From assembly GCA_001664005.1 (NCBI GenBank), contig CP016093.1:2997001-3061000 (forward strand): a stretch of DNA of 64,000 bases, read 5' to 3'. Source of the stretch: Rhizobiales bacterium NRL2 (GTDB lineage Bacteria > Pseudomonadota > Alphaproteobacteria > Minwuiales > Minwuiaceae). This document shows positions 45,184 to 54,641 of the stretch, piece by piece. The first letter of the stretch is position 1; every line of letters begins with the position of its first letter. The notes under the pieces are model-generated. The model was given only the letters and a program-made list of their open reading frames with translations. It did no database searches and was not told the DNA's origin. Both the position numbers and the translations under genes were made by a program.

Positions 45184-46158
45184 CTACGCCGCTTCCAGGA
45201 CGTGCACGCTGAACAGGCCGTTGGCGTCGGTCAGGCTGCGCCGCGCGCGGAAGCCGGCGTCCTCCGCCATCGCCCGGAATTCATCGAGGCCGTACTTGTG
45301 GGAGTTCTCCGTGTGCAGGGTCTCGTCCTCGCGGAAGTCGAAGCGCCGGCCGGCGACGGTCACGGCCTGGTCGCATCCGCTGACCAGATGCATCTCGATC
45401 CGCCCCTCGTCATCGTTCCAGACGGCGCGGTGGCTGAAGGCGTTGAGCTCGAAATCGCCGTCCAGTTCCCGGTTGATGCGCCGAAGCAGGTTGAGGTTGA
45501 AGGCCGCCGTCACGCCCTCGGCGTCGTCATAGGCCGCCTCCAGGATCGCCGGGTCCTTCTTCAGGTCGACGCCGATCACCAGAAAGCCGCCCTGCCCGAC
45601 GGTCCGGCGCGCGCCGCGGAGGAACTCGGCCGCTTCGTCCCGGCTCAGATTGCCGATCGTGGAACCGGGGAAGAAGCCGATGCGCGGGCCCTTCGGCACG
45701 ACATCGTCCAGGCGCACCGGGTCGGTGAAGTCGGCGCAGACCGCGACCACCTCGATCGCCGGGTTCTCGGCCGCGAAGGCGCCGGCATTGTCGAGCAGAT
45801 GGTCGCGTGAGATGTCGATCGGCACGTAGCATTGCGGCCGCCCGAGCGCCTGCACGAACAGGCGGATCTTGTCGGCGGAGCCGCTGCCGAACTCGATCAC
45901 CGTCGCGCCTTCGGGCAGCAGGCGGCGCAATTCGTCGGCATGGTCGCGCAGGATGCCGCACTCGGTACGGGTGGGATAGTATTCCTGCAGCTCGCAGATG
46001 CGCTCGAACAGGCGCGAACCCTCCTCGTCGTAGAAGAACTTGGCGGGCGTCGCCTTCCGCGGTTTCGCCAGCCCCTCCAGGATGGCGGTGCGAAAGTCCT
46101 CCAGTTCCGGCTCCAGGTCGAGAAAGCCCCGAAGGTGCGTGTCGGCGGCGATGTTCAT
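45184..46158 (-). CDS. egtD: L-histidine N(alpha)-methyltransferase
   Basis: 324 residues. It trimethylates histidine to hercynine with three SAM. KPRKATPAKFFYDEEGSRLFERICELQEYYPTRTE at the N-terminus is the EgtD signature, followed by the SAM site VIEFGSGSADKIRLF and FFPGSTIGNL. The C-terminal LHTENSHKYGLDEF is also typical. The ATG overlaps the egtB stop (ATGA). With egtB this makes hercynine and its sulfoxide conjugate; no C-S lyase gene (egtE) is beside the pair. Confidence 0.95.
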   Translation of the reverse strand: MNIAADTHLRGFLDLEPELEDFRTAILEGLAKPRKATPAKFFYDEEGSRLFERICELQEYYPTRTECGILRDHADELRRLLPEGATVIEFGSGSADKIRLFVQALGRPQCYVPIDISRDHLLDNAGAFAAENPAIEVVAVCADFTDPVRLDDVVPKGPRIGFFPGSTIGNLSRDEAAEFLRGARRTVGQGGFLVIGVDLKKDPAILEAAYDDAEGVTAAFNLNLLRRINRELDGDFELNAFSHRAVWNDDEGRIEMHLVSGCDQAVTVAGRRFDFREDETLHTENSHKYGLDEFRAMAEDAGFRARRSLTDANGLFSVHVLEAA

Positions 46159-47450
46159 GACAGGTCCTCCGCGAGGCGCAGGCCGGAGAACTGCCAGCGC
46201 TGATGGGGATAGAAGAAGTTGCGGTAGCTGGCGCGGACATGGCCCGGCGGCGTGACGCAGGAGCCGCCGCGCAGCACGAACTGGTTGGCCATGAACTTGC
46301 CGTTGTATTCGCCCACCGCGCCGGCCGGCGGACGGAAGCCGGGATAGGCGCCGTAGGGGCTGGCGGTCCATTCCCAGACTGCGCCGAACATCTGCCTGAG
46401 CCCCTCGCCCGCCGCGGCGGGACGCGGCAGCAGGGCCTCGGGTTCGGGCCCGGGCGGGACGAGACCTTCCGCCGCGAACTCCCATTCGGCCTCGGTGGGC
46501 AGGCGTTTGCCGGCCCAGCGGGCGAAGGCGTCGGCCTCGTAAAAGCTGACATGGGCCACGGGCGCGGCAGGCTCGACGGGGCGCAGCCCGTAGAGGCCCA
46601 TGACCTCGATGCCGCCCTCGGCGTCCCGCTCCCAGTAGAGCGGCGCGCTCCAGCCCTGGGCCTGAACCGTGGCCCAGCCGTCGGCCAGCCACAGTTCCGG
46701 CCGCCGGTAACCGCCGTCGGCGATGAAATCGAGCCACTCGCCGCAGGTCACCGGCCGGTCGGCCAGACGGAACGGCCGCAGCAACACCTCGTGGCGCGGC
46801 CCCTCATTGTCGAAGGCGAAGCCGGGGCCTGCATGGCCGATCTCCCGGATACCGCCCTCGAAGTCGATCCAGCCGAACGGCGGCGCGGCGGCCTCGGCGA
46901 GGGGCGGCGCGCCGTCGGTCGCGTAGGCCGGCCTGAGGGGATTGCGCGACAGCAGATTCAGCGCGTCGGTCAGCAGCAACTCCTGATGCTGCTGTTCGTG
47001 GTTGAGGCCGAGTTCCGTCAGCCCCGCGACCGCGCCCGACGGATCGTTCGCAACTTCCAGCAGCGCCGCCATGGCTTCGTCCACATGGGCGCGGTAGGCC
47101 ATGACCTCGTCCAGCGGCGGCCGGGTCAGCATGCCCCGCTGCGGCCGGGGCTGGCGGGGGCCTTCGGCCTCGTAATAGGAATTGAAGATGTAGTGGTAGC
47201 GCTCGTCGAAGGCGCGGTAGTCCGCCGCGTGCGGGCGCAGCACGAAGGTCTCGAAGAACCAGCTCACATGGCCCAGATGCCACTTGGTCGGGCTGGCGTC
47301 TTCCATCGCCTGCACCACCTGGTCCTCGGGCGAGAGCGGCGCGGCCAGCGCCTCGCTCCGCTGCCGCACGGCCCGGTAGCGCTCAGGGGTCAAGGCCGCC
47401 GTTTCCGGGTCAGGACCCCCGTGCGGCAAGGCCGTGGCATCGTCTGGCAT
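46155..47450 (-). CDS. egtB: Ergothioneine biosynthesis protein EgtB (iron-dependent sulfoxide synthase)
   Basis: 431 residues. The N-terminal DinB-like part gives the iron ligands: His61 in KWHLGHVSWFFETF, and His151/His155 in NHEQQHQELLLTD. The C-terminal FGE/sulfatase-modifying-type fold includes PFGWIDFEGGIREIG, RLPTEAEWEFAAEGL and NGKFMANQFVLRGGSCVTPPGHVRASYRNFFYPHQRWQFSGLRLA. It joins hercynine to a thiol donor (gamma-glutamylcysteine or cysteine) with O2. ATG 47450 has GAGGGA upstream. First gene of the egtBD operon. Confidence 0.95.
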   Translation of the reverse strand: MPDDATALPHGGPDPETAALTPERYRAVRQRSEALAAPLSPEDQVVQAMEDASPTKWHLGHVSWFFETFVLRPHAADYRAFDERYHYIFNSYYEAEGPRQPRPQRGMLTRPPLDEVMAYRAHVDEAMAALLEVANDPSGAVAGLTELGLNHEQQHQELLLTDALNLLSRNPLRPAYATDGAPPLAEAAAPPFGWIDFEGGIREIGHAGPGFAFDNEGPRHEVLLRPFRLADRPVTCGEWLDFIADGGYRRPELWLADGWATVQAQGWSAPLYWERDAEGGIEVMGLYGLRPVEPAAPVAHVSFYEADAFARWAGKRLPTEAEWEFAAEGLVPPGPEPEALLPRPAAAGEGLRQMFGAVWEWTASPYGAYPGFRPPAGAVGEYNGKFMANQFVLRGGSCVTPPGHVRASYRNFFYPHQRWQFSGLRLAEDLS

Positions 47451-47895
47451 GTTGTCCCTCGTGGTTCTTCTTGTGCCTGCGGACGCGCCCGGGCGCGTCA
47501 TCGCCACGCCCGAAATCAGACATAGGAATGCGTCACCGGGATGAAAGGGACGAATTGCCGCCGCACCCTGCGGAATAAACCTCCGCGCATGAATTGCGTC
47601 ATCGCCCGGCCCGGCCGGGCAAGCCATGCGGACAGGTCACCGCGATCCGGCGCCTGCCTCACGGCAATGTCAGCAGCGCCGCGTCACCGGATCGGCTCAG
47701 GCATGGGTCCCGCGCCGGCGCTGTGCGCCGCGCAGGACTCGGCACCTGTTTCCAGTGGAGTCCTGGGGCCGGCGAAGCCCCCCCGGCGTCCCGGGACTCG
47801 ATCCCGGGACCCTGTTTGTTGGCGACGCGGCGCTGGACCCCGCACGATTCAGCAGGCCCGCTGGCCGGCCCAGCCAACCCCAGCGGGCCATGCGG
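47451..47895. other. Intergenic region with repeats upstream of egtB
   Basis: 445 bases between the egtB start and the oxoprolinase stop. It holds the egtB leader, a family B hairpin (GTCATCGCCCGG..., stem 47604-47620), GC-rich irregular repeats around 47750-47785 and a family A hairpin at 47788-47810. I see no convincing gene in it. Confidence 0.5.
47788..47810. repeat. Intergenic hairpin (family A)
   Basis: GTCCCGGGA-CTCGA-TCCCGGGAC, a perfect 9+5+9 stem followed by CCTGTTTGTT. It matches the first member of the pairs at 45072 and 51605 in loop and flanking bases. Confidence 0.65.
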
Positions 47896-50800
47896 CTACG
47901 CTGGCTTGCCAAACCCGCCGCCACTTGGCGTCGAAATGACGATGGCGTCGCCGGGTTCGAGCTTGGCGATGGCGCGGCCTTCCAGTTCCTCCGTTGAGCC
48001 GTCCCGGCGCTCGACCCAGTTGCGGCCGACCTCGCCGTTCGCCCCGCCTTCCAGGCCGAAGGGCGGCACGACGCGGTGGGAGCCGAGCAGCGAGGCGGTC
48101 ATCGCCTCCCGGAAGCGCATCCGGCGGAAGGTGCCGTCGCCGCCCCTGTGCCGGCCCTTGCCGCCGGAGCCGCGGCGGATGTGGAAATCCTCCAGGATCA
48201 CGGGGAAGCGGAACTCCAGCACCTCCGGGTCCGTGAGCCGGGTGTTGGTCATGTGGGTGTGGACCGCGTCGGTGCCGTCGAAGTCCGCGCCGGCGCCGGA
48301 GCCGCCGCAGATGGTCTCGTAGTACTGGTAGCGGTCATTGCCGAAGGTGAAGTTGTTCATCGTCCCCTGCGCCGCCGCCATGACGCCCAGCGCGCCAAAC
48401 AGCGCGTCGGTGATGCACTGGCTGGTCTCGACATTGCCGGCGACCACGGCGGCCGGGTATTCGGGCCGGAGCATGGACTTCTGCGGGATCTTCACGTGCA
48501 GCGGCTTCAGGCAGCCGCCGTTCAGCGGGATATCCGAGTCCACCAGGCAGCGGAAGACGTAGAGCACCGCGGCCATGGCGACCGACGTGGGCGCGTTGTA
48601 GTTGGTCGGATGCATCTCCGAGGTGCCGGCGAAGTCGATCTCCGCCGAGCGGTCCTCGCGGTCGATGGTCACCTTCACCCGGATGACGTAGCCGTCGTCC
48701 ATCGGGTATTCGAACTCGCCGTCCTTCAGGACGTCGATGACGCGGCGGACCGACTCCTCGGCGTTGTCCTGGACGTGGCCCATATAGGCGCGGACGACGT
48801 CGAGGCCGAAATCGTCGACCATGCGTTTCAGCTCCCGCGCGCCCTTCTCGCAGGCGGCGATCTGCGCCGAGAGGTCGGCCAGGTTCTGCTTCGGGTTGCG
48901 CGCCGGATACCTGCCCGAGGTCAGGATCTCGACGACTTCGCCTTCGCGGAAGCGGCCGCCGTCGACCAGCAGGACATTGTCCAGCAGCACGCCCTCCTCC
49001 TCGACCGTCTTCGAATCCGGCGGCATGGAGCCCGGCGTCTTGCCGCCGATGTCGGCATGGTGGCCGCGGCTGGCGGTATAGAACAGCACCTCGGTCTCCG
49101 CCTCGTCATAGACCGGCGCGATCACGGTGACGTCGGGCAGGTGCGTGCCGCCATTGTAGGGCGCGTTCAGCATGTAGACGTCGCCGGGCTTCATGGTGGC
49201 CGCGTTTTCCCGGATCACCGTCTTGATGCTCTGCGACATGGAGCCGAGGTGGACCGGCATGTGGGGCGCGTTGGCGATCAGCTCGCCCTCCGCGTCGAAC
49301 AGGGCGCAGGAGAAGTCCAGCCGCTCCTTGATGTTGACCGAATAGGCCGTGCGCTCGAGGACGACGCCCATCTGCTCGGCGATGTTCATGAACAGGTTGT
49401 TGAAGATCTCCAGCATCACCGGGTCGGCCTCGGTGCCGATGGCGCGCGCGCCGGAGCGGGCCTCGACGCGGCGCAGCACCAGATGGCGCTTGCCCGTCAT
49501 CTCGGCGCGCCAGCCGGGCTCGACGATGGTGGTCGCCGTGGCCTCGGTGACGATCGCCGGGCCGTCGATGGCCTCGCCCGGCTGCATCGCCTCCCGGTCG
49601 AAGACGCCGGTGTGGCGCCAGTCGCCGTCCATCCAGGCCTGCACTTCGGCCAGCGCCTCGGGCGCGCCCTCGCCCGTCTCCGATTCAGCGTCCTCGATCA
49701 CCTCGCCCGGCGCCACGGCCTCGACGGTGGCGGCCTCGACGATGATGGTCTTCTCCGGGCTCTCGAAGCCGAACTGCTGGCGGTGGGCCTCGGCGAAGCG
49801 CCGCTCGACCTCCTCCAGCCCACCGAAGGCAATGGCCAGCGCGGTATCCGACCCTTCGTAGCGGATCAGCGCCCCCAGATGGATCTCGATCTTCGCCTCG
49901 GGCACGTCCTGGTCCAGCAGTTCCCGACGCGCCTGCCCGGCCAGCTCGTCGTGGACCGCCTTGATCGCGTCCATGTTCTCCGCTGCCAGCGGCTTCTCGA
50001 CGGTCTTCTCCCTGAGCGCGCGGGTGTCGGCGAGGCCCATGCCATAGGCGGAGAGCACGCCCGCATGGGGGTGCAGCAGCACGGTCTCGATGCCCAGCTT
50101 GTCGGCCACCAGGCAGGCATGCTGCCCGCCCGCGCCGCCGAAGCAGTTGAGCACGTATTTCGAGACGTCATAGCCGCGCTGGATCGAGATCTTCTTGATG
50201 GCGTTGGCCATGTTCTCGACCGCGATATCGAGGAACCCGGCCGCGACCTGTTCGGGCGTGCGGCGGTCACCGGTCTCCTCGGCGATGCGGTCGGCCAGTT
50301 CCGCGAACTTCTCCCGCACGACCTCGGCGTCCAGCGGCGCGTCGCCGTTCGGGCCGAAGACGGCGGGGAACTGCTCCGGCTGCAGCTTGCCCAGCATGAC
50401 GTTGCAGTCGGTGACCGCCAGCGGGCCGCCATTGCGGTAGCAGGCGGGACCGGGATGGGCGCCGGCCGAATCGGGGCCGACCTGGTAGCGTCCGGCCTCG
50501 AAATGCAGAACCGAGCCGCCGCCCGCGGCGACGGTGTGGATCAGCATCATCGGCGCGCGCATGCGCACGCCCGCGACCTCCGTCTCGAAGGCGCGCTCGA
50601 ACTCGCCGTTGTAGTGGCTGACGTCGGTGGACGTGCCGCCCATGTCGAAGCCGATGACCCGGTCGAAGCCCGCCATGGCGGCGGTGCGGACCATGCCGAC
50701 CACGCCGCCAGCGGGCCCCGACAGGATCGCGTCCTTGCCCTGGAACAGCCGCGCGTCGGTCAGCCCGCCATTCGACTGCATGAACATCAGCCGGGCGTCG

Positions 50801-51501
50801 CCCAGTTCGCCCGCCACCTGGTCGACATAGCGGCGCAGGATCGGCGAGAGATAGGCGTCGACCACCGTGGTGTCGCCGCGGCTGACGATCTTCATCAGCG
50901 GGCTGGTGCCGTGGCTGGTGGAGACCTGGGTGAAGCCGGTCTCGCAGGCGATCTCCGCCACCCGTTCCTCGTGGGCGGTGAAGCGGAAGCCATGCATGAA
51001 GACGATGGCGACGGCGCGGATACCGTCGTCGAAGGCGGCCTGCAGCGCCTGGCGCGCCGCGGCCTCGTCCAGCGGCTCCAGCTCTTCGCCGTTGGTGTCG
51101 ACGCGTCCCGGCACCTCGGCCACGCGTTCATAGAGCATTTCCGGCAGTTCGATCTTCAGCGCGAACAGCTTCGGTCGGTTCTGATATCCGATACGAAGAA
51201 CATCGGAGAAGCCCTTGTTCGTAATGAACAGACAGCGGTCGCCCTTGCGCTCCAGCAGCGCATTGGTGGCGACCGTGGTGCCCATCTTGACCGCCTCGAT
51301 CCCGGCGTCGGGTATCGGATCGCCGGCCTCCAGGCCCAGCAGGTCGCGGATGCCCTGCAGCGCGGCGTCCTTGTAGCGGTCCGGGTTCTCGGAGAGCACC
51401 TTGTGGGTGACCACCGAACCGTCGGGCCTGCGGCCGACGATGTCGGTGAAGGTGCCGCCCCGGTCGATCCAGAACTGCCAGCGGTTCGCCATGTCGTTCA
51501 T
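47896..51501 (-). CDS. 5-oxoprolinase / hydantoinase, fused A+B form
   Basis: 1201 residues. Residues about 1-690 are the hydantoinase A-type ASKHA half: [51 protein letters not shown] and [20 protein letters not shown]. The rest is the hydantoinase B-type half: [44 protein letters not shown] and [16 protein letters not shown]. The fusion is that of eukaryotic-style ATP-dependent 5-oxoprolinase, which opens pyroglutamate to glutamate, although acetophenone carboxylase and hydantoinase relatives share the fold. It is likely a single-gene unit; nearness to egtBD may reflect glutathione/gamma-glutamyl metabolism. Confidence 0.9.
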
Positions 51502-51604
51502 CGATGCCCTCCCGAACGCCTTGCGTTCAACCTACGCCGGCGGCGCGGGCGATCAAGTGGCGGGCTGCGCGTGACAACGGGACGGGCCGCGATACATCGG
51601 TCCC

Positions 51605-51675
51605 GTTCCGGGGCTCGACCCCGGAACCCAGTGCAGCGGCGATGCCGGACTGGACCCCGGGATCAAGTCCCGGGG
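51605..51675. repeat. Paired intergenic hairpins (family A)
   Basis: GTTCCGGGG-CTCGA-CCCCGGAAC at 51605-51627 and CCCCGGGA-TCAAG-TCCCGGGG at 51655-51675. Both stems are perfect. The loops are CTCGA and TCAAG, the latter the complement-type of CTTGA. They lie between the divergent oxoprolinase and SDR genes, so a terminator role is unlikely here. Confidence 0.7.
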
Positions 51676-51706
51676 CGGGCCGGCGTCAAACCGGAGGGAT
51701 GGAATC

Positions 51707-52399
51707 ATGGACGTGAAACGGGCGCTGATCGTCGGCGCGGGCAAGGGCATCTCGGCCAGCTTCGCCAAGGGGCTGGCCGCGCGCGGCGCCAAGGTCATGC
51801 TGGCGGCACGGAACACGGACAAGCTGGCGGATCTCGCCGCGGAGACCGGTGCGCTGACGGAAAGCTGCGACGCCGGCGATCCGGCCTCGGTCGCGGCGCT
51901 GTTCCAGGCGGCGGACCGGGAGATGGGCGGCGTCGATCTCGTCCTCTACAACGCCTCCAGCCGGGCCCGCGGCGGCATCGCCGAACTCGATCCGGCGGAT
52001 GTGGAAATGGCCATCCGCATCTCCGGTTTCGGCGGTTTCCTGGTGGCGCAGCAGGCGGGAAAACGCATGCTGGATCAGGGACATGGCGCGATCTTCTTCA
52101 CCGGAACCTCAGCCAGTGTAAAGGGCTATCCCAACTCGTCGAGCTTCGCCATGGGCAAGTTCGCCCTGCGCGGTCTCTGCCAGTCGCTGGCGCGGGAACT
52201 GTCGCCGAAGAACATCCACATCGCTCACTTCGTTATCGACGGCGGCGTGCGCTCCGACACGCGGAAGGAGCCGGAGGGCAAACCCGACTCCTTCCTCGAT
52301 CCCGACGCGATCGCGCAAACCTATCTGGCCGTGCTTGACCAGCCGCGCAATGCCTGGTCCTGGGAGGTGGAACTCAGGCCGTTCGTCGAGAATTTCTAG
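51707..52399 (+). CDS. SDR-family oxidoreductase with Phe in place of the catalytic Tyr
   Basis: 230 residues. ALIVGAGKGISASFAKGLAARGAKVML is the coenzyme site (G-x-x-x-G-I-x). The active-site region reads IFFTGTSASVKGYPNSSSFAMGKFALRGLCQSLARELSPKNI, where the usual Y-x-x-x-K is F147-A-M-G-K151; Ser135/137 and Lys151 remain. Loss of the Tyr hydroxyl would weaken or change classic dehydrogenase chemistry. GGAGG lies nine bases before ATG 51707. The last 4 bases overlap the convergent GH3-like gene. Confidence 0.85.
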   Translation: MDVKRALIVGAGKGISASFAKGLAARGAKVMLAARNTDKLADLAAETGALTESCDAGDPASVAALFQAADREMGGVDLVLYNASSRARGGIAELDPADVEMAIRISGFGGFLVAQQAGKRMLDQGHGAIFFTGTSASVKGYPNSSSFAMGKFALRGLCQSLARELSPKNIHIAHFVIDGGVRSDTRKEPEGKPDSFLDPDAIAQTYLAVLDQPRNAWSWEVELRPFVENF

Positions 52400-53901
52400 G
52401 CTGCGCTGCAGTCCATCTGTGCGCTCTGGCGGGCCGATGCTGGCCGGTGCTCCCGGAAGCCGACGGTTACCGCCGCCTCCGCTCCGTCCGCCCGCGCGGT
52501 GTCATAGGCCAGGCTCGCCCGGCGCAGGCGGCGGTCGACAGCCTCCGCAATCGCCGCCAGACGCGGCTCCACGTCGGCACGGCGCTCCAGCAGCAGCCGG
52601 AAGGTTCCCTTGCGCGGGCCGCCCAGCAGGGTGAAACGCGGCGGATCGCCGAAGGCGGCGTCCAGCGCTTCGCCGGCCGCGGCGTTGGCCTGGGAGACCT
52701 GCAGCCGCGCCTGTTCCGCCAGCCCGGTCTGGAGATCGTGGCGGCGCACCCGCAGCGTCGGGCAGCGGCCGAGATGGCCGTCGACCCGCACCGTGGCCTT
52801 GAGGCGATAGCGGTAGAGCCCCGACATGGTCGTCACGAAGACCTGGTAGTCCTGTCCGGGGCGGATCCCGTAGAGACCCAGGAACGCCGCCGGCGCCGGG
52901 TGCTCGGCATCGACCTCCGCGAACTCGAAATAGGCTTCCGTGAGCAGGGGCAGGAAGGTCTCGCCCAGGCCCATGGCGACGGTGGCCCGGACCTCGCTCA
53001 GCTCGCAGCCGGTATCGACGATGCGCACCCGAATGGGCAGCCAGGCCGGGCGGCCGGAATCGTCGGCGGTGAGGTCCGCGGCGACGACCGTCAGCGACGG
53101 CCAGACCGACGCCACGCTCAGAACGCCTTCCTGTGCCGTCACCAGCGAGAGTTCTTCGATACGCCCGTCGTCCGGCGCGATCGCATCGCGCGCAGCGGCG
53201 GCGAGACCCGATGGCAGACGGTCGGCGATGCTCAACTCGCCGCCCTCCAGATCCGCCAGCAGCCGCTCGCCATGGCGCCCGAGCACATCCTGCAGCAGAT
53301 CCAGGCTCTCCAGACGGCCGGCGTCGATGCCGGTGACGTCGCGATGGCCGAGCCAGAGCAGCGCGACGACATAAGCGCGCGCTTCCAGGTCGAGGATCTG
53401 GCGCAGGCCCGGAACGGGGTCCGCCCCCGCCGTCCCTGCGAGCGCGCCGAGATCCAGCACGCGGCCGGCGGCGAACCCGCTTTCCCGCGCCAGCGCCCGG
53501 TGCGCCACCTCGCGGGCCCGCGCCCTGTACGCCAGATCGCCGGCGACGAGCGGAACACGGTCGCAGCGCCGGACGGCGCCGGACGCCGGCAGGTGGGTGA
53601 CGGGGCGGTCCGCCGAAAGCACGGGCTGACCGGAGGCGCGCTGCATCTCGATCATCGGACGCAGGGCGTGGAACTCGTGCACCGGCACGGCGCGGCGGTA
53701 GGCCTCGACGTCGCCGATGGCCGCAAAGCCGTGGCGGCGACCCATGACGGTCTCCGCGTTGCGCGCAAGGATCCGGCGCAGAACGTCGGCCTGTGCGGTC
53801 TCGGGCTGCCGGGCGGCCTTGCGCAGCCCGGCTTCGAAGGTGTCGGCCGAACCGGTGCTACCGGCCTGGCCCATGGTGTCGTTCGGCTGAAGGTTCATCA
53901 T
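52396..53901 (-). CDS. GH3-family (auxin-responsive-like) acyl-adenylate/amide synthetase homologue
   Basis: 501 residues. TAQADVLRRILARNAETVMGRRHGFAAI, VPVHEFHALRPMIEMQRASG, then EAYFEF (about 320) and FVTTMSGLYRYRLKATVRVDG are the succession of blocks of the GH3 family, which adenylates a carboxylate and joins it to an amino acid. The ATP loop, S-S-G-T-T-x-G in active members, reads ASGAVRR here (106-112), so ATP use is in doubt. Plant GH3s conjugate auxin and jasmonate; bacterial roles are poorly known. The gene is divergent from a TetR regulator across palindrome-rich DNA. Confidence 0.75.
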   Translation of the reverse strand: MMNLQPNDTMGQAGSTGSADTFEAGLRKAARQPETAQADVLRRILARNAETVMGRRHGFAAIGDVEAYRRAVPVHEFHALRPMIEMQRASGQPVLSADRPVTHLPASGAVRRCDRVPLVAGDLAYRARAREVAHRALARESGFAAGRVLDLGALAGTAGADPVPGLRQILDLEARAYVVALLWLGHRDVTGIDAGRLESLDLLQDVLGRHGERLLADLEGGELSIADRLPSGLAAAARDAIAPDDGRIEELSLVTAQEGVLSVASVWPSLTVVAADLTADDSGRPAWLPIRVRIVDTGCELSEVRATVAMGLGETFLPLLTEAYFEFAEVDAEHPAPAAFLGLYGIRPGQDYQVFVTTMSGLYRYRLKATVRVDGHLGRCPTLRVRRHDLQTGLAEQARLQVSQANAAAGEALDAAFGDPPRFTLLGGPRKGTFRLLLERRADVEPRLAAIAEAVDRRLRRASLAYDTARADGAEAAVTVGFREHRPASARQSAQMDCSAA

Positions 53902-53923
53902 ATCCCCCCGGATATTTAACAGC

Positions 53924-53976
53924 GTTCAAAACGCAAGATAGGCATTTTTGAACGACGTTCAATAACTTTTTTGAAC
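53924..53976. promoter_or_regulatory. Cluster of GTTCAA/TTGAAC operator palindromes
   Basis: GTTCAAAA (53924-53931), TTTTTGAAC (53945-53953), GTTCAA (53957-53962) and TTGAAC (53971-53976). The core TTGAACG-A-CGTTCAA at 53948-53962 is a perfect palindrome, and GTTCAA-N8-TTGAAC at 53957-53976 overlaps it. The cluster lies in the AT-rich gap between the GH3-like gene and tetR, most likely the TetR binding site. Confidence 0.65.
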
Positions 53977-54050
53977 ACTGTATATTTTTCCCGTGAAATT
54001 TTCCGCCGCGCGTGGCACACAACGCCCCGGAACCGAAACGGAGGCACGCC

Positions 54051-54641
54051 ATGGCGCGCAGGTCCGACCATACCCACGACGAAATCCGGGCGATGGCGGT
54101 CGACGCCGCCCGCGCGAAGATCGGGAACGCCGGACTGGACAAGGTCACGCTGCGGGGCATCGCCCGGGACATCGGCTATTCGCCGGGCACGCTCTACAAC
54201 GTGTTCGACAGCGCCGACGAGCTGATGATGCGGGTCAACGCCGGCACCATCGACGACCTGGTGGCCGCCCTCTCCGCGGCCGAACGGAACGGCGCCGAGC
54301 CCGACCTTCGCGCCTTGCTGGCCATCTACCGGGACTTCGTTGAACAGAACCGGCATCGCTGGCAGGCGGTCTTCGACTACTCCCTTTCCGACCCGGGGGC
54401 GGCGCCCGACTGGTACGTCGCCAAGCTGAACGACGGCCTGGCGGTGGTGGAACGCGCGGTCGCGCGGTTGCCCGGCGACTTCCCCTACCCGCCCGCGGTG
54501 GTCGCCCGCGTGATCTGGGCGGGACTGCACGGCATCTTCTCGCTGGGCGCCGAAGGCAACCTGAAGTTGGTCACCGACCGCGATGCCGCGGACCTTGCCG
54601 AAGCGCTCATCGCCCTGATCGACCGGGCAATCCGGCACTGA
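54051..54641 (+). CDS. TetR-family transcriptional regulator
   Basis: 196 residues. HTHDEIRAMAVDAARAKIGNAGLDKVTLRGIARDIGYSPGTLYNVFDSADELMMRV is the DNA-binding domain (G-I-A-R-D-I-G-Y-S-x-G-T-L-Y-N-x-F). The C-terminal ligand domain carries YRDFVEQNRHRWQAVFDYSLSDPGAAPDWY and a WAGLHGIFSL helix, as in TetR_C WHG-type regulators. GGAGG precedes ATG 54051 by about seven bases; GTG 54012 is an alternative. It is divergent from the GH3-like gene and probably represses it and itself. Confidence 0.9.
   Translation: MARRSDHTHDEIRAMAVDAARAKIGNAGLDKVTLRGIARDIGYSPGTLYNVFDSADELMMRVNAGTIDDLVAALSAAERNGAEPDLRALLAIYRDFVEQNRHRWQAVFDYSLSDPGAAPDWYVAKLNDGLAVVERAVARLPGDFPYPPAVVARVIWAGLHGIFSLGAEGNLKLVTDRDAADLAEALIALIDRAIRH

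Follow-up and report, generated by a model that had tools for sequence, protein, structure and literature searches.

The plant GH3 acyl acid amido synthetases have bacterial relatives, among them OlsH, a lyso-ornithine lipid synthetase (NF052613; PMC12493201). Enzymes of this kind spend ATP on linking amino acids to other acids, for example fatty acids or plant hormones. They work by adenylation followed by rotation of the C-terminal domain (PMC11253546). Three GH3 nucleotide motifs are listed in the OlsH paper, where a single Ser-to-Ala change in motif I (S115, of TSG) is reported to have abolished activity and the Ser of motif II to be non-essential (PMC12493201). On the strength of the first of these results, motif I matters in a bacterial GH3.

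Here we describe P0002, a bacterial GH3 homologue encoded in a 64,000-nucleotide stretch of the genome of Rhizobiales bacterium NRL2 (contig CP016093.1, positions 2,997,001 to 3,061,000; hereafter the window). Its motif positions are comparable with those of OlsH. In comparison with the plant GH3s, and with the motifs taken from the OlsH paper, motifs I and III are lost, motif II is partly lost, and the C-terminal domain is shortened. Our preferred reading, to which we assign a probability of about 0.7 from sequence comparison and modelling, is that P0002 is a GH3-fold pseudoenzyme in which ATP binding and adenylation have been lost and which is kept by selection. No bacterial pseudo-GH3 appeared among the papers listed in a literature search, which is not proof of absence.

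The gene and its family

P0002 is read from an ATG start as 501 amino acids plus a stop codon, and the end of its gene overlaps that of a convergent SDR gene by four bases (Table 1). The protein scores above the Pfam cut-offs (23.6) for GH3 (PF03321; 82.4 bits) and GH3_M (PF23571; 54.8 bits), and its membership of the GH3 homologous superfamily is borne out both by these profiles and by the predicted fold described below. GH3_C is absent from its Pfam matches at E values up to 1 and is present in two intact relatives, L007 and L008, and in L001, which is the other of the two PF03321 matches in the genome. Against the OlsH model NF052613, P0002 scores 41.6 bits, far below the cut-off of 620, and so falls outside that family.

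In the second GH3 of the genome, L001 (G000:C1:3227315-3227839), the loop is normal. Its score against the OlsH model is 558 bits, likewise under the cut-off of 620 yet much nearer to it than that of P0002; given its presence, the organism may make N-acyl ornithine-type lipids. P0002 was also considered as a recent copy of L001, and this was rejected because the two lie in different parts of the tree, in which the exact placement of P0002 is uncertain.

Table 1. Features of the P0002 locus, with positions in the window
Feature	Position	Strand	Basis
P0002, degenerate GH3 homologue	52396..53901	-	ORF, Pfam, dN/dS, tree
Residue 497, Asp (Lys in relatives); chain stops four residues on	52411..52413	-	alignments
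Hinge site, residues 396-399, EQAR (nearest relatives TGEK)	52705..52716	-	alignments
Motif III (residues 361-369), GLYRYRLKA without the closing Asp	52795..52821	-	alignments
Motif II (residues 299-303), CELSE with Ser-Glu retained	52993..53007	-	alignments
Motif I (residues 106-114), ASGAVRRCD in place of the (S/T)SGTTxGxxK of most relatives	53560..53586	-	alignments
G-run resembling a ribosome-binding site, before ATGATG	53904..53909	-	sequence; putative role
Second, imperfect palindrome TTTAACAGCGTTCAA	53915..53929	.	sequence; putative role
Perfect 15-base palindrome TTGAACGACGTTCAA, possible TetR operator	53948..53962	.	sequence; putative role
Divergent TetR-family regulator (TetR_N, TetR_C_33), possibly dedicated repressor	54012..54641	+	Pfam; presumed target

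A chance ORF or a sequencing error is unlikely, because the loop is identical in a second genome, that of the sister species G007, and the differences between the two genes fall 16/20/76 at codon positions 1/2/3. A sequencing error or frameshift at the loop itself was rejected, as the letters are the same in G007 and the protein stays aligned before and after the loop. A plus-strand gene, for which a 490-amino acid ORF spans 52447-53919, was likewise rejected, with the Pfam match and the codon-position bias favouring the minus strand; the G+C content of the three codon positions, a mirror image between the strands, favours the minus strand only weakly.

Loss and retention of conserved residues

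The sequence ASGAVRR that a first-pass annotation had placed at residues 106-112 is exactly there, and is followed by CD at 113-114, where GH3 enzymes have (S/T)SG(T/S)(T/S)xGxxK. The possibility raised at that stage, that the real P-loop lies elsewhere, finds no support: a regular-expression search of P0002 revealed no second (S/T)(S/T)G(S/T)(S/T)xG, and the loop occupies the same position in three printed alignments (12, 5, and 48 rows), in two pairwise alignments, and in a 22-row alignment as scored. The same annotation had regarded the later motifs as intact, which is correct for EAYFEF and TTMSGLYRYR, both of which are present, but not for the end of motif III, where Ala369 replaces the closing Asp of GLYRYRxGD. 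Beyond this, the hinge GEK has become QAR and the C-terminal Lys has become Asp497. Motif II, YxSSE in the enzymes, retains its Ser-Glu and has lost its Tyr, which is missing in some relatives too.

How unusual these changes are can be judged from an alignment of 48 rows, obtained from 54 hits by dropping six repeat copies (L002, L024, L025, L026, L033, and L044); three Phenylobacterium metagenome-assembled genomes within the data set (L037, L038, and L049) are near-identical and not independent. With P0002 and its orthologue set aside, 46 rows remain; 45 of these have a residue aligned with position 114, and in all 45 it is Lys. This Lys is kept even in rows where motif I otherwise varies (for example, TSATTG in L041 and TGGSSGG in L029-L031). 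Asp at residue 369, Gly-Glu at 397-398, and Lys at 497 are each found in 46/46 rows, and residue 399 is Lys in 31 and His in 15. Of 51 near-invariant columns, defined by a conservation of 90% or more among the relatives, P0002 deviates in 24, one of which is a gap. Each of 21 relatives, scored with itself and P0002 left out, deviates in 0-8 of 50-56, the highest counts being those of the fragment L044 (8/51) and the actinobacterial L055 (8/56). An Asn-Pro pair conserved in the 21 relatives is Arg196-Leu197 in P0002, which also lacks about 25 residues of a segment conserved among its nearest relatives.

Not everything is lost. An amide synthetase that has diverged strongly and still works, its ATP site built anew from different residues, would account for what is kept, namely S107, G108, E303, E326-F327, G361-L362, and R364-Y365. 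The two serines probed in OlsH both have serine counterparts in P0002: S107 for the essential S115, and S302 for the Ser of motif II. The retention of S107 and of the motif II Ser-Glu counts against the pseudoenzyme reading. We nevertheless regard a rebuilt site as highly improbable, since P0002 has Asp for the Lys114 found in the relatives, Ala for their Asp369, Gln-Ala for their hinge Gly-Glu, and Asp for their Lys497, and none of these changes is conservative. Taken with the GH3 mechanism (PMC11253546), the residues lost lead us to infer that adenylation, and with it the ATP chemistry of the family, has probably been lost.

Predicted structure

An AlphaFold model of P0002 computed with 22 sequences has a mean pLDDT of 80.3 and a pTM of 0.71, with values under 50 at residues 1-15, in the loop (108-112), in the hinge (390-398), and in the tail (486-501). 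The intact relative L033, modelled with the same 22 proteins, reaches a pLDDT of 88.3 and a pTM of 0.84, falling under 50 at its two ends only. GH3 crystal structures top the structure-match lists for both models, and the fold predicted for P0002 is that of a GH3 protein, shared with the plant enzymes 4b2g, 7dk8, and 4epl (VIA Z 35.4, 34.7, and 34.7, respectively). Its best match, to 4b2g_B, has an rmsd of 7.5 Å over 457 residues, and that to 4epl 8.4 Å over 443. Against 7dk8, 523 residues of L033 align at 3.4 Å, compared with 444 residues of P0002 at 7.4 Å. The larger values for P0002 may in part stem from the placing of the C-terminal domain in the models and not from decay, because P0002 superposes on 4eql_B at 3.2 Å over 373 residues (Z 29.7) and L033 on 6avh_D at 8.2 Å over 444 residues. 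We give this comparison no weight.

An orthologue under purifying selection

Within the family, four of nine genomes match P0002 at E values up to 0.001 (the order search covers the same nine), and strong matches are confined to two, its own and that of G007; those in G003 and G008 are weak, and the proteins matched are different GH3s whose loop is normal. The G007 orthologue is 93% identical, of equal length, and free of gaps and stop codons. The first-pass annotation had proposed a survey of whether orthologues share the altered loop: the one orthologue found does. This says little about constraint on the loop, because no changed codon lies in the loop itself. For the gene as a whole, dN/dS between the two species is 0.16 (NG86) or 0.11 (YN00), and eight neighbouring genes range from 0.009 to 0.140, so that P0002, the highest of the nine genes compared, is on these sequence-based estimates the fastest-evolving of them yet still constrained. 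The longest run without a change covers 74 residues and falls short of significance (p 0.14 and 0.23).

These figures bear on the possibility that P0002 is a pseudogene in early decay that is still open in two sister species. Its high dN/dS relative to the neighbouring genes, the very long stem branch on which the pair sits, the restriction of strong matches to two family genomes, and the C-terminal truncation are all what decay would produce. However, decay is difficult to reconcile with a dN/dS of 0.11-0.16 and with 501 codons that have acquired neither an indel nor a stop; nor does it explain why, out of 33 amino acid changes between the species, only one lies in residues 236-328, where 17 codons have changed, or why the G-run and both upstream palindromes are unchanged in G007, with 5 of the 110 intergenic bases differing. 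We consider early decay improbable.

A different chemistry, which the first-pass annotation had offered beside a pseudoenzyme, would make P0002 a GH3-derived enzyme that carries out, for example, ATP-independent acyl transfer or hydrolysis via Cys113, Cys299, or the new arginines. The altered loop RRCD and the Cys of motif II are identical in both species, and there is no amino acid change in residues 76-127, but that segment contains just two changed codons, both synonymous, which makes its conservation weak evidence. No catalytic arrangement can be recognized in the model, in which both loop and hinge are of low confidence, and we hold this proposal to be very improbable.

The pseudoenzyme reading combines missing catalytic residues with purifying selection, the latter measured in one species pair. 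It was already suggested by the loop, and now has wider grounds, because motif I, the Asp that closes motif III, the hinge residues, and the Lys near the C terminus have been lost together and this degenerate state is common to the one orthologue found; as far as sequence can speak to the matter, it speaks in favour. The highest dN/dS of nine genes, the single orthologue, and the long branch in the tree weigh on the other side.

Relatives and phylogeny

Relatives were sought in three overlapping genome sets, each of them a sample. P0002 as query gave 19 matches with E up to 1e-3 in 385 genomes of the class, many of them OlsH-like and on another branch; profile A2 found seven with E up to 1e-20 in 398 genomes of the phylum, and a search of the 289 nearest genomes found five with E up to 1e-10. 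Scanning the contigs of named genomes with A3 gave 24 loci; the corresponding scan with P0002 as query found nothing, and extending the search to the order of G087, where one genome was covered, brought no further relatives.

In the resulting tree, P0002 and its orthologue fall inside a proteobacterial branch with L007 (identical to L033), L034, and L008 (support 93/93), and the stem leading to the pair measures 3.02 changes per column. P0002 (L003 in the tree) is a long-branch row and one of ten rows with an odd letter make-up, and there are signs of long-branch joins elsewhere in the tree, so that its exact placement is uncertain. The intact alphaproteobacterial GH3s nearest to it in the tree share 30% (L007) and 29% (L008) identity with P0002 and, unlike it, still have Lys in motif I, Asp at the end of motif III, GEK at the hinge, and the C-terminal Lys.

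Gene neighbourhoods

These intact relatives differ from P0002 in context too, sitting between a fatty acid hydroxylase gene and an enolase-superfamily gene. Among 15 proteobacterial loci (L033-L041, L044, L045, L049, and L105-L107), 14 have the hydroxylase immediately upstream of, or fused to, the GH3 and the enolase-superfamily gene immediately downstream; in the fifteenth, L044, the enolase gene is present and the contig starts inside the GH3 gene. The labels were checked with Pfam in five loci for FA_hydroxylase and in three for MR_MLE, the rest depending on tblastn. Two of the hydroxylases, scanned against the OlsE model, scored 149.6 and 193.6 bits, below its cut-off of 475. In the 12 other loci of the scan, the hydroxylase is found in none, and the enolase gene lies just upstream in L042 and L043, about 1 kb downstream in L053-L055, about 4 kb away in L048, and is not found in six.

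The hydroxylase and GH3 occupy one ORF in L035 and L040 (by Pfam) and in L041 and L028/L106 (by reading frame), and the enolase-superfamily gene has weak matches to o-succinylbenzoate synthases and N-acylamino-acid racemases. The cassette might represent a pathway of the amino-lipid type; no such lipid-type cassette turned up in the literature search. No hydroxylase or enolase partner of P0002 was found in the 64-kb window, and elsewhere in its genome there are four FA_hydroxylase matches and one enolase-superfamily match (31% identity, 40 bits).

Ending 0.9 kb from P0002 is a gene at 47896-51501, which we take to be hydantoinase-like. It has relatives of 65-71% identity at L033:22-1830 and L034:2-1504, some 5-6 kb from the intact GH3, and this proximity is possibly a trace of shared ancestral gene order. 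Further from P0002, at 45184-47627, are two adjacent minus-strand ORFs that presumably resemble egtD and egtB, the ergothioneine genes. At 51602-51682, upstream of the SDR gene, is a hairpin-forming repeat of about 78 bases; a stretch of 86 bases folds at -54.2 kcal/mol (z -3.6). Another 25 partial matches to the repeat are spread over 23 places in the genome, and G007 has 10.

On the other side of P0002, 110 bases separate its start from the divergent TetR gene and contain both palindromes. A whole-genome search for the palindrome, with two mismatches allowed, found six places, one of them perfect; the two in this intergenic region are the perfect site and one of the others. None of the intergenic differences from G007 falls in either palindrome. 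The TetR protein is 99% identical in G007, and among the family matches listed no other exceeds 34% identity. Four genomes that do not have P0002 were compared around their SDR orthologue (L088-L091; regions of 9-12 kb, the L091 contig beginning just before the SDR orthologue); there, tblastn detected neither P0002 nor the TetR gene, nor any of nine other window genes tried, so these regions share the SDR gene alone with the window.

The divergent arrangement and the palindrome suggest that TetR would repress both P0002 and itself, the link between regulator and operator being drawn from sequence, and that a small ligand would release it. P0002 would then act by binding a ligand or a partner protein, and not by amide-bond synthesis; a possible partner is the other, intact OlsH-like GH3 of the genome. 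A binding or partner role in the cell is reached by exclusion, and we rate any specific regulatory role much lower than the reading of P0002 as a non-adenylating, maintained protein. The fullest version, in which a biosynthetic GH3 left its lipid cassette behind, gave up its ATP chemistry, and now binds a ligand or regulates a partner under its own TetR, possibly controlling the OlsH-like paralogue, is one that we put forward tentatively and think unlikely.

Implications

The intact relatives of P0002 point to a lipid-type gene cassette, which is a separate lead. If P0002 is indeed a pseudoenzyme, it would be an experiment of nature that separates the GH3 residues needed for catalysis from those needed for the fold, and would offer a simple, TetR-linked setting for finding out what purpose a dead adenylating enzyme might have.
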